Assembly: GCA_024636935.1 (NCBI GenBank)
Contig: JAGXGC010000001.1
Location: 1-37,190 of the forward strand
Direction: 5' to 3'
DNA: 37,190 bases
Origin: Sideroxydans sp.
GTDB lineage: Bacteria > Pseudomonadota > Gammaproteobacteria > Burkholderiales > Gallionellaceae
In this document: positions 2,569-16,054 of the stretch, in pieces
Layout: each line of letters opens with the position of its first letter
Position numbering within the stretch: the first letter of the stretch is position 1
Translations under genes and position numbers: made by a program
Notes under the pieces: model-generated
Database searches by the model: none
Seen by the model: the letters and a program-made list of their open reading frames with translations, nothing else
Told to the model about the DNA's origin: nothing

Positions 2569-4194
2569 ATGAATAAATGGTGGAGCAAACTTTCACTGAA
2601 GAGCAAACTTCAGATACCTATCCAACTGATTCTGTTGGCTATCATGGTGCTCGCGCAGCGTTCGGCATTGAACACTTTTGAAGAGCGAATCCTTGAGGAG
2701 GCGCGCCAAAAGGCGGTTGTTTCTGCAGATGGTGTGCTGAACGGACTCAATATGTTGATGCTTAACGGCATCATCAGTGATGCAGATCAGCGCAAGCTGT
2801 ATGTGGAGAAGATGGGGGCTTCGAACAGGGTCCTCAATCTTCGCGTGATGCGCCATACACCGGTTATCGAGCAGTTCGGTCCCGGTTTGCCTTCAGAGAT
2901 GGCAAAGGATGAGATGGACAAGGAAGTGTTGGCCACCGGAAAGCAACAGACGCGCGTAGAAAAGCAGGGTGACCTGCATACGTTACGTGTCGTCGTACCG
3001 TTCATCGCTCAGGCTGATTTCCGAGGCACCAACTGTTTGATGTGTCACATCGTGCCTGAAGGTTCGGTGAACGGTGCGGCCAGCATTACACTTGATGTTT
3101 CCGAAGAATTCGACTTGATGGCTCATGCGAACACAGTGCTGTGGGGCATACAGATCGCGATTCAGGTGTTCCTGTATTTCATGATCGGCTGGCTGATCAG
3201 TTTCGTCACCGGTCCGACACGCACGTTGCAGCAGGCTATGCTGGCCATGCAGGCGACAGGTGACCTATCTAGGCGCGTGCCGGTGAATACGGAAGACGAA
3301 GTAGGGCAGACCGTGCGAGCATTCAATGCGCTTGCCAACAATTTCCAGTCGATCGTTTCGCAGGTGGATGGGCAGGCCTCGCAAGTGGCGAGTGCAGCAC
3401 ATTCCCTATCTGGGGATGCCGCCACGCTTGCTACGAGTGTGAAGAATCAGAGTGATGCTGCCACAGTAGTTGCGAGTGCTGTTTCACAGGTCAGCGACAG
3501 TATCGGGCAGGTTGCGGAAAGCACCGGCCGGGTAGCCAAGCTGTCGCATGAAAGTCTGGCGCGTGCCAACCGTGGCCAGGAAAGCTTGCAGGATATGGTG
3601 CAGGAATTGAGTAATGTCGAACGCGCTGTAGAAGAGATAGCCAACTCGGTCAACCAGTTCGTGGCTAATACACAGAGCATCACCAGCATGACACAACAGG
3701 TGCGAGACATCGCCGAGCAGACCAATCTGCTCGCACTGAATGCGGCGATTGAGGCTGCACGTGCTGGTGAGCAGGGACGCGGTTTCGCCGTTGTGGCAGA
3801 CGAGGTGCGCAAGCTGGCCGAGAAATCTGCGCAGTCTGCAACCCAGATCGATGAGGTGACGCAATCCCTAGGGAGTCAGTCCGAGCAGGTCGAGCGTACG
3901 GTGCAAAGCGGTATGAGTGCATTGCAGACCAGCCAGGCGCATGTGAATGACGTGACCAAAATATTGATCGAATCCAACAAATCAGTTGGCGGGGTGAATG
4001 ACGGTCTGGAAGAGATATCTCGTTCCATCAATTCGCAGCGCGATGCTGCGCAGGAGATCGCCCGCAACGTGGAGAACATCGCTGCCATGGCTGAGCAAAG
4101 CAATGCCGTGGTGCAACGCACGGTGTCATCTGCGCAAACGATGGAGCAGGTTGCCGAAAGCCTGAAATCGACAGTGGGCAAATTCAAGGTGTGA
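2569..4194 (+). CDS. Methyl-accepting chemotaxis protein with periplasmic c-heme motif
   Basis: This 541-residue receptor has a first membrane helix (about 15-32), a periplasmic domain, a second helix (about 189-212), a HAMP domain (about 213-266) and a signalling domain whose tip (about 381-416) has the canonical [18 protein letters not shown] sequence. Near the end of the periplasmic domain is CLMCH (C156, C159, H160), a CXXCH site for covalent heme c attachment. Known family precedent is the Geobacter heme-c chemoreceptor sensor domain (GSU0935/GSU0582 type). The role is therefore inferred to be redox or gas sensing that feeds CheA. The ribosome site is AGGGGG. The next gene has a homologous periplasmic domain, so the pair probably arose by duplication. 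No C-terminal CheR-tethering pentapeptide is seen. Confidence 0.9.
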
Positions 4195-4221: not shown

Positions 4222-6306
4222 GTGCAAAATAAAAACGCATATGTGTCACAGAAAGAGGTCCCCTTTCAGGATGGAGAGGTGCTGATTTCCAAGACCGATA
4301 CCAAAGGCATCCTCACTTACTGTAATGATGCTTTCGAGCGGATATCTGGCTATTCACGTGAAGAATTGATCGGCAAGAGTCATAACATCGTTCGCCATCC
4401 GGATATGCCGAAACAGGCGTTCAAGTGGCTCTGGGATACCTTGAAAGCTGAACGTCCATGGCGCGGGTTGGTCAAGAATAGATGTAAAAGTGGTGACCAC
4501 TATTGGGTGCGTGCCACGGTGGCCCCTATTATGGAAGGTGGCAGCATCGTCGGATACGTCTCTGTGCGTCGACCACCTACACGCGCACAGATTGCTGAGG
4601 CGGAATCTCTGTATCGCGATTTAAATCAACATAGCGGGGAAGTCGTTTCACGCTTTGAGCGTTTTAAGATCAAGAACTGGTCTTTGAAAACCAAATTGCA
4701 AGCGGCAATCCAGATCCCACTGCTGCTCATCCTGACTGTGGCACAGATGTACCTGACAGGGAGCATGCAGGATGAAGCGATGCTTCAGGCTGAATCCAAG
4801 GGAACGCAGATCGCTACCCAGATCATCGACAACGCGAACATGTTGATGGTGACTGGTCAGATCGGGATGGAAGAAAATCGCAAGTTACTGCTCGAGAAAG
4901 TCACCGCCTCGGGGCATGTGAAATCTGCGGTCATTCTGCGCTCTGATCTATTGGTATCACAATACGGCGCAGGTTCGCCCGAGCAGAAAGTTAAGGATGA
5001 TGTGCAGCGCGAGGTTTTAAAATCCGGACAAGCTCAGGTGATATTCGGAAAAGACAATGCCGGTTCACCGGTCATGCGCATCATCACGCCTTATCTGGCC
5101 AGCAAGGACTTCCACGGCACTGATTGCACTTTATGCCATGCAGGACCTGACAATTGGGTGACTGGCGCGTCCGATGTTTCGATCGATCTCAAAGAAGACT
5201 TCGAGCGCATCGATTCGATGGAAATGAAAGTGCTGGCTGGGCAGATCGTCTTGCAGTTATTCCTGTTCTTCTTCATTGGATATTGTGTGGATCGATTCAT
5301 TCATCGCCCGTTGTCGCAGGTGGAGAAAGAGTTTCGCAATATCATGGAAGGGAATCTGGATACTGAACTGGATATCACCATTCAAGACGAGATGGGCTCG
5401 CTGTTGTGCGCGATCCAGACTATGCAGACTTATCTACGTACCATGGTGGATGAGATTGTCACGCCGGTAAGCAAGATGCGAGAGCGTGTGCGGGCTGTTG
5501 ACGAGAAGGTCGGCGTGGTGGCGAACAACGCGGTGACCGAACAGGAGCAGATCCAGAGCATAGCGGCGACCATGGAGGAATTTAGCCAGTCCATCGCGGA
5601 AGTGGCGAACATGGCGGCCGACTCGTTGACCGAGATGAAACGTACCCAGAGCATCGTCGAGCAGAACGACAAGAATATGGGTCTGAGTATCGATGCGACT
5701 ACCAAGGTTGCAGAAACAGTGCAACGTTCCAGTAAGACGATCTCCGATCTTGGTGTTTCCATCGAGCGTATCGGGAAAATTGCAAACACGATCAAAGAGA
5801 TCGCGGATCAGACCAACTTGCTGGCATTGAATGCCGCCATCGAAGCGGCACGGGCAGGTGAGCAGGGTCGCGGTTTTGCGGTGGTGGCGGACGAGGTGCG
5901 CAAGTTGGCGGAAAGAACTGCTTCCAGCACCAAGGACATCACCAAGACCATCGCCGATATCACGTCGATTTCAGAAGAAGCTGTCAAGTCCATGGGCGAG
6001 GCAGTGACCGAGGTGGAGAGCGGCATCAAACTCATTCGAAGCAACGGCGAGCAACTGAAGGAAGTGATGGAAGCGACGATCAGCATGTCGCAGCGTATCG
6101 ATCACATCACCGTATCCTCCAAGGAGCAGTCGGAGGCGGGTGAGAATGTGGCCAAGAGTCTGGAGCAGATCACTGGACTGGTGGATGAAAATGCGCAGTC
6201 GTCGCAGGCGACGCGCGCTGCGGCGGTAGAATTGGCAAAATCGGCCGATGAATTAAGCAAAGCAGGTTATCCGCTTACCAAGTGTGGCATGCGGAACCGT
6301 GGCTGA
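4222..6306 (+). CDS. Chemoreceptor with Aer-type FAD PAS domain plus periplasmic c-heme motif
   Basis: This 694-residue protein starts at a GTG with AGGAG seven bases upstream. Its N-terminal PAS domain (about 18-118) keeps the Aer FAD-pocket residues: N35, R58, H59, D61, W71 and W80, and a GDHYWVRA strand. Then come a membrane helix (about 163-180), a periplasmic domain homologous to that of the previous receptor with CTLCH (C302, C305, H306), a second helix (about 336-357), HAMP, and a signalling domain with the conserved tip at about 527-565. It should therefore carry two redox groups, FAD inside the cell and heme c outside. The extreme C-terminus may be altered by a one-base indel near 6259. 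Ligand and signal polarity are unknown. Confidence 0.9.
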
Positions 6307-6320
6307 GCGAGGAGAGCGTA

Positions 6321-7265
6321 ATGTCTGAACTGTTAAAAAATATCGATGCGCGTACCAAGCTGGCGGGTACCAACAAGCTGGAGATCCTGATGTTTTCGCT
6401 GGGCAAGGATCTGCGTACCGCCCGCGAGGAGACCTTCGGCATCAACGTGTTCAAGGTGCGCGAAGTGATGCGTATCCCAGAGATCACTCGTGCACCTGAG
6501 ATGCCGCCCTCGGTAGAAGGAATGGTGAGTCTGCGCGGTGCGTTGGTACCTGTAATCGATCTTTCCAAATACATCGGTATGGAATCGGACAGTAAACCGG
6601 GCATCATGATCGTTACCGAATACAACGGTCATACCCAAGGGTTTCTTGTGAAGTCGGTGGACAACATCTTGCGTCTTGACTGGTCTGCGATGCGAGTACC
6701 GCCCGAGATGCTGGTGGCTGAGATGGGGGGGTTGGTGACTGCCATCACTGAGTTGAAAGACAAGCGCTTGGTGATGATGTTGGACGTAGAGAAAGTGCTG
6801 GCAGAGACGGGGCATTTTGGCTCTGATGAGATGATCTTCAAGGCAGTCCAACCTATCAACAAAGAGAATCGCACTGTGTTCTTTGCCGACGACTCATCTG
6901 TCGCACGTAACCAGATTGCTCGTACGCTAGAGGCGATGGGTGTCAAGTCCATCTCTGCTATCAATGGGCGCAAGGCATGGGAAGAGTTGGCGCGGATGGC
7001 GGACTATGCAGAATCATCCAATACGCCCTTGAAAGAGATGGTGCAGGTGATTCTGACCGATGTCGAGATGCCCGAGATGGACGGCTACATGCTGACGCGG
7101 AAGATCAAGGCCGACAAACGGTTTAACGGTATTCCGGTGCTGATGCATTCTTCGCTGTCTAGCAACTCCAACCAGCAGTTGGGCAAGGCGGTGGGGGTGG
7201 ATGAGTATGTGCCCAAGTTCGAGCCGCAAAAATTATCGCAGACGTTGGCGCGTCTGCTGGGATAA
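6321..7265 (+). CDS. cheV: Chemotaxis coupling protein CheV (first copy)
   Basis: CheV joins receptors to CheA through a CheW-like domain and adjusts coupling by phosphorylation of a C-terminal receiver. The 314-residue product has the CheW-like domain at about 20-165 (GINVFKVREV, SLRGALVPVIDL) and a receiver at about 184-312 with D190/D191, the phospho-acceptor D247 in LTDVEMPEMDGY, and K299. I start it at the ATG at 6321 because a GAGGAGAG ribosome site lies just before it; the frame is open further upstream to 6282, but that would overlap the receptor. It is followed 11 bases later by a second cheV. Confidence 0.94.
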   Translation: MSELLKNIDARTKLAGTNKLEILMFSLGKDLRTAREETFGINVFKVREVMRIPEITRAPEMPPSVEGMVSLRGALVPVIDLSKYIGMESDSKPGIMIVTEYNGHTQGFLVKSVDNILRLDWSAMRVPPEMLVAEMGGLVTAITELKDKRLVMMLDVEKVLAETGHFGSDEMIFKAVQPINKENRTVFFADDSSVARNQIARTLEAMGVKSISAINGRKAWEELARMADYAESSNTPLKEMVQVILTDVEMPEMDGYMLTRKIKADKRFNGIPVLMHSSLSSNSNQQLGKAVGVDEYVPKFEPQKLSQTLARLLG

Positions 7266-7276
7266 GGGGGTTCAAG

Positions 7277-8227
7277 ATGGCTTATAACGAAGACATGCTG
7301 GCATCCAGTCAAGACGACGGTCTGCTTGATCATATCAATGCGCGCACGAATCTGGCGGGCACCAACAAGATGGAGATTCTGCTGTTCAATCTGGGAACAG
7401 AGGAAAAGTTCGGCATCAATGTGTTCAAGGTTAAAGAAGTGTCGCAAGCCGGCAAGATCACACGCACCCCCAACATGCCGCAGGGGGTGGACGGTATCAT
7501 CAGCTTGCGCGGTCACGTGATGCCGGTGTTGAACCTGGCGAAGTTCATCGGGGTACACGAAGAAGAACCCCACCAGACCATGATGGTGGCTGAATATAAC
7601 AATCACATCCTCGGATTTCTGGTGAAGGACGTAGATAGGATCATCCGTGTTGACTGGGATAAGGTGCGCCCGACCGAAGGCATGCTGTCGGACAAAGACG
7701 CGCTGATCACAGCCATCACCAATCTTGATGACGGATCTCTGGTTTCTATCCTCGATGTTGAGCAGATACTTTCCAATGCCTTTGGTGAAGCGATCGTTGG
7801 CAACGTTGAGCGTATCGAATCCCCGCATGATCTTTGCGTGTTCTTTGCGGACGATTCTATGGTGGCTCGTCGCAAGATCGCAGAAGTGCTGGACCGTATG
7901 GGTGTCAAGCACATTCAGTCCAGCAATGGCCAAGAAGCATGGGATCGTTTGCGATCGATGGCGGATGCCGCGCAAAGCAGCGGGCAGAATCTGCATGATC
8001 AGATCCAGGTCATTTTGACTGACGCTGAGATGCCAGCCATGGATGGTTATGTGCTAACCCAGTACATCAAGAATGACAGACGTTTTGAAGGTATCCCAGT
8101 CGTGATGCACTCATCTCTTTCATCCGATGCAAATCGTGCGATGGGTACCCGAGTGGGTGTGGATTACTACGTGCCGAAGTTCGACTCGATGGTGTTGTCG
8201 TCCACCTTGAGGCCGTTGCTGACATAA
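7277..8227 (+). CDS. cheV: Chemotaxis coupling protein CheV (second copy)
   Basis: This second CheV of 316 residues lies tandem to the first and shares the motif ARTNLAGTNKMEIL, the CheW-like core (GINVFKVKEV, SLRGHVMPVLNL) and a receiver with D192/D193 and phospho-acceptor D249 in LTDAEMPAMDGY. Compared with the first copy it has an 11-residue longer N-terminus and lacks a short insertion before GINVF. The ribosome site is AAGGGGG, just after the previous stop. The copies are clearly diverged in the CheW-like part, so they may serve different receptors; this is inference. Confidence 0.94.
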   Translation: MAYNEDMLASSQDDGLLDHINARTNLAGTNKMEILLFNLGTEEKFGINVFKVKEVSQAGKITRTPNMPQGVDGIISLRGHVMPVLNLAKFIGVHEEEPHQTMMVAEYNNHILGFLVKDVDRIIRVDWDKVRPTEGMLSDKDALITAITNLDDGSLVSILDVEQILSNAFGEAIVGNVERIESPHDLCVFFADDSMVARRKIAEVLDRMGVKHIQSSNGQEAWDRLRSMADAAQSSGQNLHDQIQVILTDAEMPAMDGYVLTQYIKNDRRFEGIPVVMHSSLSSDANRAMGTRVGVDYYVPKFDSMVLSSTLRPLLT

Positions 8228-11352: not shown

Positions 11353-11480
11353 TCGGAAAGGCCTGTTGCAGTTGGTGACAGAACTGAAAGGTGAGGCCGG
11401 CGCAGTCAGAAAATCAGTCGAAGGATTCAAAGTCTGATCAATTTTTGGTCAGCAATATAACAATAATTTTGGAGGCTCTG

Positions 11481-12608
11481 ATGTTTTGCGGAAAATTGAA
11501 GCAGGAGAATAAAACGGCCCAACTTCGCTTGGTGGAGACGGAACGTGACATCGGTAGTCTTCGTGAAGAACTGGCAAGGCTGGAGCGCCAGCGCGATAGT
11601 TTGCGCGAGGAGACTGAGCAAGCCAAACTGAAGTGTGCAGTGGCAGATAGAATTTTCGCCAACATGCAGGGCTTCGGGGAATCATTTATTTCTTTGCAAA
11701 CTTCCCAGGTTCAAGCGGCCACTTCCTTGCGCGAAGAAAAGCAGCATGCGGTCGAAGCGGCTAGTGTGTCAGTGAATAATCGTGAAGCCGTGCTGAATAT
11801 TGCCTCCAGTCTGGAATCTCTATCCGGTGATACCTTGCAGACATCCAAGAACGTGCAAGGCCTGACGGAACGTGCAGCGCAGATCGGTAGTATCGTGCAG
11901 CTGATCAAGGAGATTGCCGATCAGACCAATCTGCTGGCCCTGAATGCAGCGATCGAAGCGGCGCGTGCGGGTGAGCAGGGGCGCGGTTTTGCGGTGGTCG
12001 CTGATGAGGTGCGTAAACTAGCTGAACGCACTGCCAAGGCGACCAGCGAGATATCGGTGATCGTCACTGCCATTCAAGACGAGACGCACCATGCCCGCAC
12101 CCAGATGGAGGATTGGGCCAAGAAATCTCAGATGTTCAGCAGTGATGTAGGTACGGTGATGGAGAACATGAAACACCTGCTGGATTTGTCGCACACCATG
12201 GAGGGCACCATATCAGCCGCCGCACTTCGCAGCTTCGTCGAAGTCGCCAAGCTCGACCACATTCTCTACAAGTTCGAGATATATAAGGTATTCATGGGTA
12301 TCTCCGAGAGGGATGCAGGCAGTTTCTCTTCCCATACTGCATGCCGTCTGGGTAAGTGGTATTTTGAAGGTGAAGGCAAGGATTGCTTCTCCAAACTGGA
12401 CGGCTATCAAGCGGTGGCTGCCCCACATCAGGGATTCCATCAGAACGGCAAAGAGGCGGTGGCAGCGTTTCATGCAGGTGATCCACTGCGCGGCATGGGG
12501 TTGGTGAGCAAGATGGAGGCAGATAGCATGGCTGTCCTGTCTGCATTGGAGCGTATTGCAATCGCTGGGGAAGCCGACAACAGCCTGTTGTGCGCTTCAC
12601 CGAGCTGA
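11481..12608 (+). CDS. Soluble chemoreceptor with C-terminal zinc-binding CZB domain
   Basis: This 375-residue receptor has no membrane helix, so it should be cytoplasmic. The start at 11481 is set by GGAGG five bases upstream; the frame opens earlier, at a GTG at 11391. Residues 5-55 form a charged coiled coil. A short signalling domain follows with the conserved tip (about 144-180, [19 protein letters not shown]). The C-terminus is a CZB domain with ligands H260, C288, H316 and H320 and the CRLGKWY motif. CZB domains bind zinc by three His and one Cys and have been linked to zinc or hypochlorous acid sensing. It lies between cheA and cheR, so it is part of the core cluster. Confidence 0.9.
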
Positions 12609-14091: not shown

Positions 14092-15561
14092 TCAGTTGCG
14101 TTTGCTTGCAGCCGGATGTTTTTCGGCGACCATCTGGTCGATGATTGTCATTACATCCAGGCTAGCTTCTTCTGCTGTCTTCAATTGATTCATGATTTTA
14201 TCCTGTAGCGACTCGTCATGTGCCCAATCCCGCTCCATCAGCGTCAGCATGCCATGCACTGAACCATGCACCTTGCTATGCGGAACATCCAGCTTGCGGA
14301 ATGATGAAAGTTCGCCGAACACCTCTTTGCCTGCACCTGCATACCACTTGCCGAGGCGGCAGTTGTGATGGTCAATGCCGGCTGCCTTCTTGTATTCTTC
14401 GTTGTCCCACTCATTGACCAGTACATAGGCGCGTTGTTTGTAAATGACGTGGTCGACTTTAACTAGCGAGGCAAAACTCAGATCCTGTGCGTAGCGGGCA
14501 CTGGCCAATGAGGTCACCGCTGATTCGTAGAATTGGCCAAACTTGTGTTCCAACTTGCCGATGACGCTCTGCGAAGAATTGGCGATCTCATGCATCTCCT
14601 GCGAGTCCGTCAACATCTTGGCTGATTCACTTTGCAGCATCAACATGATGCGTCCAATCGATTCGGATGCATTCTTGGTGTTCTCAGCTAGCTTGCGCAC
14701 CTCGTCTGCCACTACCGCAAAACCGCGTCCCGCCTCGCCTGCGCGTGCCGCCTCAATGGCTGCATTCAGTGCCAAGAGGTTGGTTTGATCGGCAATGGAA
14801 GTGATCAGTCCGACGGCCTTGGTGATCTCGCTGCTGCGTGCATTGAGCTTGGTGATCGCCTCGTTGGCATGATTAACCCTTGCCACGATGCCAGACAGAC
14901 GCTGTACTACATCCTTGACGGATTCGCGACTCTCTTCCGCATCTTCGCGCGTGCGGCGTGAAATGCTGGCCAGCTCTTCCATGTTGTCAGTGATGACCTT
15001 CAGATCATTCTGGTTGGAAACAAGGTTCTTCAACAGGTTGTCGGTATTCAGATGGTGCGCACGTGACAGCATATGCGTACGCATGGCATTGCGCTTCTGC
15101 TCAGCCATTCCTTCAATCAGGATGTTCTGATTGGCCAGACCTTTCTTGAAGCCGCCGTGCACGCCGCCGTTCAGTGCCTGCCGGAAGAAGTTGCCGGCTA
15201 GATTTGCCCGGAAGCTGGTCTCCTGTTCGCGGAAGAAGGTAGCCAGTTGGTCCAACATGTCGTTCACATCCCAGCACAGCAGACTGATCTCGTCGCGTGA
15301 ATTGCCGATGCCGGTCACGCGCGAATTGAATTTTCCGGCTGCAACATCATTGATCACGGTCACGACTTTCTTCAAGGGCGCTAACCACCGGCGCACCAGC
15401 CATTGGCCCGCTGCAGAAGCGGCGATACCCGCGGCCAGGAAGGTGATCATGAATGCATCAAAGCCATGACGGGCAAAGCTGGTCAGAATGATGAGCAGCG
15501 TGCCGAAAGAAAATGCCCACAACAGGGCGGAGAATCTAGATTGCAAGGACCAGTTCGTCAT
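14092..15561 (-). CDS. CetA-like membrane chemoreceptor with HAMP and C-terminal CZB domain
   Basis: This 489-residue receptor has two closely spaced membrane helices (about 11-29 and 36-56) with almost no periplasmic loop, as in Aer and Campylobacter CetA, so it cannot sense an external ligand directly. A HAMP-like region (about 57-110), a signalling domain with tip [19 protein letters not shown] (about 257-290), and a CZB domain with H371, C401, H428 and H432 follow; the 30/27/4 spacing matches that of the DgcZ zinc site. The start overlaps the end of the upstream PAS gene by 26 bases, which implies coupled translation and a shared complex. The CZB fusion adds a zinc or oxidant input. Confidence 0.9.
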
Positions 15562-16054
15562 AGCTCATTCCTTTGTCTTTCAGTACATCCACCAGAATCT
15601 TGGTCGAGGTTGCGATGGCATTGGCGGGGCCTGCCTGCCGTTCGGCTTCCAGCATGGCGGCATAAAGCGGAGTCACGACATCGATACCGCTGCGCTTGGG
15701 TTTGCGGCGCACCGAGAAATAGCCATTGACATTGCCAGACGAATCGAACGTTGGCGTCACGTTGGTGAACACCCAATAGAAACCACCATCCTTGGACATG
15801 TTCTTCACGTAAGCGAAGCACTCTTCCTTCTTCTGGATCTTGTCCCACAACAACTGGAACACCGCACGCGGCATATCCGGATGGCGCACGATATTGTGCT
15901 GGCTGCCTAGAAGTTCTTGTTCGCTGTAGCCTGAGAATTCGATGAAGATGCGGTTGCCGTAAGTGATGCGCCCTTTGAGATCTGTCATGGAGACGATGAA
16001 ATCGTCATCCCGCATCACCCTTTCGACCGTGGTCGGTGTGATATTTCGTTTCAT
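15536..16054 (-). CDS. CetB-like PAS sensor protein (energy taxis)
   Basis: This 172-residue protein is essentially one Aer-type PAS domain (about 15-118) with a helical tail. It keeps the FAD-pocket residues N34, R57, H58, D60 and W70 at Aer numbering, in the motif [10 protein letters not shown], but the Aer tryptophan 79 is replaced by C79 (sequence ECFAYVKN). That variant resembles CetB of Campylobacter, which binds FAD and signals through the separate receptor CetA. The adjacent overlapping receptor gene fits this split-Aer model. The gene diverges from flhB. FAD binding is inferred, not shown. Confidence 0.85.

Follow-up and report, generated by a model that had tools for sequence, protein, structure and literature searches.

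Does a single chemoreceptor at this Sideroxydans locus combine an Aer-type, FAD-binding PAS domain with a c-type heme domain in the periplasm, and if so, what might it sense? The initial annotation had placed such a receptor at 4222-5290 of the window, by which we mean the whole stretch of 37,190 nucleotides analysed. The start and the residues named in it are correct, but the end at 5290 cuts the gene, with HAMP and MCP regions continuing to 6306. Here we describe the architecture of the complete protein, which we call heme-Aer, its residue conservation, its predicted fold and its distribution, and we propose how it may signal.

Architecture of heme-Aer and its PAS domain

The features of the gene and its immediate neighbours are as follows.

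2569..4194, + strand: chemoreceptor directly upstream, with a related CLMCH periplasmic domain and without PAS (PF21563 16.7 bits, below the cut-off of 27)
4222..6306, + strand: heme-Aer chemoreceptor gene (694 aa, GTG start; Pfam PAS_3, HAMP and MCPsignal above cut-off)
4315..4566, + strand: Aer-type PAS, probably FAD-binding (residues 32-115, Pfam PAS_3 match)
4702..4758, + strand: transmembrane helix 1 (residues 161-179, from hydropathy)
4759..5229, + strand: periplasmic domain, probable c-heme single Cache (residues 180-336; AF2, Foldseek and wider-family profile)
4846..4848, + strand: Met209, candidate distal ligand of the heme (opposite Met60 of GSU0935 in the alignment)
5125..5139, + strand: CTLCH c-heme attachment motif (residues 302-306; His306 is the expected proximal ligand)
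5230..5286, + strand: transmembrane helix 2 (residues 337-355, from hydropathy)
5293..5439, + strand: HAMP domain (residues 358-406; Pfam 34.6 bits against a cut-off of 25)
5710..6180, + strand: MCP signalling domain (residues 497-653; Pfam MCPsignal 152 bits)
6282-7265 and 7277-8227, + strand: two CheW-receiver (CheV-like) genes directly downstream (Pfam)

Pfam and hydropathy together give the domain order PAS, TM, TM, HAMP, MCP, as in E. coli Aer. The PAS_3 match scores 65.8 bits, above the Pfam cut-off, and residues 118-358 gave no Pfam match. The two predicted transmembrane helices are 157 residues apart, and the CTLCH motif does lie in the periplasmic loop, at residues 302-306 between the hydrophobic segments 161-179 and 337-355. 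E. coli Aer shares with heme-Aer the N-terminal PAS domain with the same FAD contacts, the two transmembrane helices, HAMP and MCP, but is described as having only a small periplasmic loop (PMC2628428), where heme-Aer has 157 residues with a c-heme motif. The HAMP of E. coli Aer is described as pairing an amphipathic helix with a hydrophobic one (PMC13401364), whereas that of heme-Aer passes the Pfam cut-off.

When the first 146 residues were compared with the PDB, the best matches were the aerotaxis receptor chains 31cj (4e-41) and 8dik (6e-41), followed by 3ewk (MmoS) and 2gj3 (NifL). We take 31cj and 8dik to be E. coli Aer, from PMC9668731 together with our own reading. The PAS domains of heme-Aer and the 31cj chain are identical at 66 of 133 aligned residues, and the PAS families of MmoS and NifL are FAD binders (PMC10468136). 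The residues previously named as those of the Aer pocket, N35, R58, H59, D61 and W80, are all present and correspond to N34, R57, H58, D60 and W79 of E. coli Aer, but the list differs from the contact set described for the Aer crystal structure, namely T27, H53, M69, R57, W70, N85 and R115 (PMC9668731). We compared six of these contacts, leaving out T27 (the printed sequence has Gln there). Five are identical in heme-Aer (H54, R58, W71, N86 and R116) and the sixth differs, M69 of Aer being L70; all six positions are invariant in a 26-row alignment. FAD-PAS families, of which the Aer type is cluster 14, have a conserved Trp on helix F-alpha and an FAD-binding His and Asn (PMC10468136), and W71, H54 and N86 (E. 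coli W70, H53 and N85) would be these three marker residues. In 44 hand-chosen rows from related loci, second copies excluded, N86 and W80 were kept in every row, H54, R58 and H59 in 43, and N35 and D61 in 42. The exceptions are L058, which is out of frame at its N-terminus, L037 with Asp35, and L016 with Glu61.

These contacts bear on whether the PAS domain could lack FAD and act as a relay, leaving the heme as the sole sensor. There is a precedent in DcrA of Desulfovibrio vulgaris, which resembles heme-Aer, by description only, in having a periplasmic c-heme and a cytoplasmic PAS in one MCP, and whose PAS is described as heme-free and a possible output relay (PMC8396549). With five of the six compared contacts identical to E. 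coli Aer and all six invariant, and with PAS the only recognisable sensor in the short sister receptors described below, we regard a relay as very improbable for heme-Aer.

Identity of the periplasmic domain

The periplasmic domain of the window protein has no Pfam match of its own, PF11845 and PF21563 included, and a direct PDB sequence search with it gave no match. A narrower profile (A1) found only cytochromes, at E 0.12 or worse, and no solved sCache_heme member. A wider-family profile of 39 rows including the window domain (A5) matched GSU0582 (3b47, 1.7e-6) and GSU0935 (3b42, 5.8e-4), and did not match Tll0287. Among the 39 related domains, 12 match PF21563 and 8 match PF11845 at E 0.1; the best one scored singly reached 25.0 bits, where the cut-off is 27. 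In the sister domains from neighbouring chemoreceptors, 6 of 36 matched Mcp40H-20_sensor (best 2.4e-5) and 6 of 36 Tll0287-like (best 0.0039), those scored singly falling under the cut-offs, and neither family was matched by the PAS-bearing receptors L059, L037 and L055 when scanned singly.

An AF2 model of the domain, built with 36 sequences, has a pLDDT of 88.8. Strands at 104-114 and 133-143 of the 160-residue modelled domain flank CXXCH, placing the motif between the last two strands; sCache_heme is described as having its CXXCH segment in this position, ahead of the final strand (PMC12889525). The best Foldseek matches in the PDB were the Cache domains of WalK (1e-5 to 6e-5) and CitA (9e-4), the WalK match being moderate (TM 0.64-0.66, rmsd 5.4); Tll0287, GSU0582 and GSU0935 were absent among the best 50 matches listed. 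The model gives no support to a 4HB fold. As the window domain has no Pfam match of its own, its placement rests on the family profiles and the model, which together make it a probable c-heme single Cache (sCache_heme) of the kind found in Geobacter GSU0582 and GSU0935.

In the wider-family alignment a Met that is invariant stands opposite residue 26 of the 3b42 chain, which is Met60 when reckoned from the numbering of Cys140, Cys143 and His144. Met60 is the distal heme ligand of GSU0935 (PMC8396549). GSU0582 and GSU0935 of Geobacter sulfurreducens (Mcp40H-20 sensor) likewise hold a periplasmic c-heme between the two transmembrane helices of an MCP, and their CXXCH His and Met60 align with the corresponding His and M209 of heme-Aer. 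They are described as having a periplasmic domain, two transmembrane helices, HAMP and MCP; an N-terminal PAS does not form part of that description (PMC8396549).

The motif is present in all aligned domains, 59 Aer-type and 72 others. Two rows counted among the 72, L016 and L021, are truly Aer-type, their PAS motif being variant or incomplete. M209 is invariant in the 59 Aer-type domains and present in 55 of the others, the remaining 17 being gapped there. In the 44 chosen rows CTLCH was kept in 41; of the exceptions, L026 carries another periplasmic domain and L062/L027 (one protein, seen twice) lacks the domain. The motif is also missing from three receptors outside the 44 rows, namely L060, the second receptor of L055 and the broken second copy in L010. 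A chance occurrence of CXXCH was rejected on this conservation and on shuffling of the 157-residue loop, in which the motif arose in 20 of 100,000 shuffles.

Two positions adjoining the heme motif distinguish the Aer-fused domains. His298 occurs in 58 and Asp301 in all 59 of them (window 5113-5115 and 5122-5124), whereas the other 72 domains mostly have Arg298 (61) and Asn301 (62), a pattern that suggests adaptation to the Aer fusion. The host genome has three PF01578 (cytochrome c assembly) matches above cut-off.

Distribution, and gain and loss of the domain

We found 33 related loci in genome contigs, many of them named Sideroxydans, Gallionella or Ferrigenium. CXXCH stands behind the PAS match in 30 of the 33; of the other three, L060 and L062 lack the periplasmic domain and L063 is a fragment. 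The start of PAS in L058 and the end of MCP in L046 are out of frame. Whole or partial matches to the entire protein were obtained in 31 of 61 genomes, the host's own and others of its genus, family and order (E 1e-60). In the order, at least 22 of 399 genomes, from three families, gave a nearly full match to the 410-residue N-terminal profile in a search that scored at most four candidates per genome. Among the 22 matches listed, eight are from the own family, nine from family f37 and five from family f42, and all 22 loci fetched from the order contain both PAS and CXXCH. We rejected a gene fusion or assembly artefact on this recurrence of PAS followed by CXXCH across loci and genomes. The combination of an Aer-type PAS and a periplasmic c-heme motif in one receptor is thus real, and both parts are conserved.

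Heme-Aer was not found outside the order at E 1e-72. At this threshold, where distant versions could be missed, the only match among 369 genomes of the class was the own genome, and 398 genomes of the phylum gave only two matches, both from the own genus. The heme domain by itself was found in 93 of the 398 phylum genomes (E 1e-6), and none of the 28 loci fetched (L097-L124) has an Aer-type PAS.

The host genome contains six such heme domains, two of them in heme-Aers. The second heme-Aer is 62% identical and lies on contig C22 of the host genome G000 (L132:6838-8928, - strand), with neighbours resembling genes for malate dehydrogenase, succinate dehydrogenase and citrate synthase and no visible chemotaxis cluster. 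Two further proteins, at G000:C36:176195-177352 and C19:21338-22486, combine this c-heme domain with a PAS at the C-terminus and show no MCP signature; they may belong to the diguanylate-cyclase type listed as cluster 400 (PMC10734462).

An MCP gene lies upstream of the receptor in 24 of the 27 loci with at least 2.5 kb of upstream sequence, and in 17 of the 27 it bears CXXCH. Elsewhere in the window, on the - strand at 14092-16054, a 172-residue Aer-type PAS protein (15536-16054) is followed by an MCP (14092-15561), the ends of the two genes overlapping. This MCP has HAMP, MCPsignal and a CZB zinc-binding domain, and the pair resembles a CetB/CetA-like split Aer with CZB added. A further MCP, at 11391-12608 on the + strand next to a cheA-like gene, ends in a CZB zinc-binding domain and gave no match to HAMP.

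Some close relatives of heme-Aer have no periplasmic domain. L060, L062/L027 and a second receptor in L055 align to the window protein on either side of residues ~180-332 and lack the intervening segment, leaving a short transmembrane hairpin as in Aer. PAS is the only recognisable sensor of these short sisters (Pfam was run on one of them). At L055:2980-6767, a Gallionella locus, a heme-Aer and a heme-less Aer stand in tandem, and in L010 a heme-less copy broken over two reading frames adjoins an intact heme-Aer. Some other Aer-type receptors of the order (L086, L090) have 4HB/TarH in the same place.

A tree was built from the PAS and HAMP-MCP parts of 70 rows (58 heme, 6 short and 6 other), with L046, L058 and L028 left out before counting. 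The label "heme" requires four changes on this tree, at least three of them forced by well supported branches, though the count is approximate because long branches were flagged (L092, L059, L089 and others). L088 pairs with the heme form (99/96), L062 and the L055 copy fall inside the main heme clade (100/99), and L060 has no settled place. On a tree of the heme domain itself, with 61 Aer-type and 52 plain rows, two changes are needed, and a single Aer-type clade is mildly rejected (p-AU 0.04), so that one fusion event is not established. The existence of close sisters without it points to repeated gain or loss of the domain, and its absence from several of them indicates that it is dispensable to an Aer.

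Such dispensability raises the question of whether the FAD-PAS might be the only live sensor and the heme domain a structural or vestigial insert. The short sisters, the four changes on the 70-row tree and the 4HB/TarH domains that occupy the site in other Aer-type receptors all fit that idea. A vestige would hardly keep both CXXCH and M209 in all 59 Aer-type domains, however, and we consider this explanation improbable.

The claim that no receptor of this kind had been described holds in part. We found no paper analysing the combination of Aer-PAS and c-heme among open-licence PMC papers, but a 2023 pangenome already lists, as cluster 40, a "Methyl-accepting chemotaxis sensory transducer with Pas/Pac sensor; Aerotaxis receptor" (Table 1) that has a single heme motif and occurs in 43 of the 87 iron oxidisers of the Gallionellaceae (PMC10734462). 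Cluster 40 very likely comprises the same proteins as heme-Aer; it is given there as a table row, and the passages bearing on it describe neither an FAD pocket nor the identity of the domain nor a mechanism. Aer genes are also reported from iron oxidisers as Slit_0546, Galf_0774, Galf_1969 and Galf_2093 (PMC3770913) and from two further strains (PMC4643136). Novelty is narrowed further by DcrA, with its c-heme and PAS, and by the Aer-type PAS with 4HB/TarH in the same order. In CetA/CetB, as described, the Aer domains are divided over a PAS protein and an MCP, making two proteins, with no heme. Each half of heme-Aer is therefore of a known kind, and the combination is unusual, listed yet, as far as we found, not analysed in print.

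A possible two-cofactor receptor and its significance

On balance we favour, from sequence, models and analogy, a receptor with two live cofactors in which the heme input is mainly of a redox type. We infer the cofactor binding, ligand switch, signal and integration as follows. The cytoplasmic N-terminal PAS would bind FAD and track the state of electron transport as in E. coli Aer, and the periplasmic single Cache would carry a covalent c-heme through Cys302, Cys305 and His306, with Met209 as the probable sixth ligand. Oxidation or a gas ligand would free Met209 and shift the domain. The FAD/PAS signal would reach HAMP from the side and the heme signal would reach it through TM2; a single HAMP-MCP unit would sum the two inputs to set CheA activity, and the cell would hold to a band where cytoplasmic chain and periplasm are both suitably poised. 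Aer is thought to signal directly from PAS to HAMP, nothing pointing to a part for the small loop, and classical MCPs signal through transmembrane shifts (PMC2628428); by analogy, heme-Aer may have both routes. A model of the full N-terminal region was rejected as a guide to domain contacts such as that of PAS with HAMP because of its low confidence (pLDDT 70.9, pTM 0.42).

The heme input could be redox or NO, because relatives show either a Met switch (GSU0582/0935) or NO binding (PMC12889525). In GSU0582 and GSU0935 Met is bound when the heme is reduced and released when it is oxidised, and both NO and CO bind (PMC8396549). If the domain were instead a nitric oxide sensor, the receptor would pair intracellular energy sensing with avoidance or tracking of NO. 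NO displaces the Met ligand of GSU0582 and GSU0935 (PMC8396549), and a signalling-fused sCache_heme of P. azotoformans is reported to bind NO tightly and to form no stable oxy complex, although that preprint's NO-binding test covers one signalling-fused member only (PMC12889525). In the host genome there are genes for a cytochrome cd1-type protein and for two COX1-family proteins, one COX1-superfamily protein being encoded ~0.7 kb upstream of the cd1-type gene on the same contig. We presume this neighbour to be NorB; NCBIfam naming of it as NorB gave no matches. With these genes the host may make and remove NO. Against this, the copper nitrite reductase model had no match in the host genome, the coupling of denitrification to iron oxidation is described as rare among Gallionellaceae (PMC10734462), and redox-linked switching has likewise been measured in the sCache_heme family (PMC8396549). 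We judge NO sensing rather unlikely, while keeping it as the main competitor of a redox input in our own thinking.

Returning to the receptor with two live cofactors, a more specific form of it would be a transmembrane redox comparator, in which FAD on the inside and a c-heme with a Met/His switch on the outside act on one HAMP and report the difference or the coincidence of cytoplasmic and periplasmic poise, the outer channel being added or removed by evolution as a cassette in otherwise similar Aers. We offer this tentatively, and lean slightly against it.

To judge from its named relatives, the host is probably a microaerophilic Fe(II) oxidiser. How such organisms find the narrow zone where O2 and Fe(II) meet is poorly known, and as of 2013 specific chemotaxis assays had not yet been done for strains ES-1 and ES-2 (PMC3770913). 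Heme-Aer, which probably has one redox cofactor inside the membrane and another outside it, is an obvious candidate for locating that zone. The natural sisters with and without the periplasmic domain, which in one case (L055) stand in tandem, provide a ready test of what the outer sensor contributes, and the same pairs could test how HAMP sums lateral PAS and transmembrane inputs. If heme-Aer functions as proposed, one protein could follow electron supply on both sides of the membrane.
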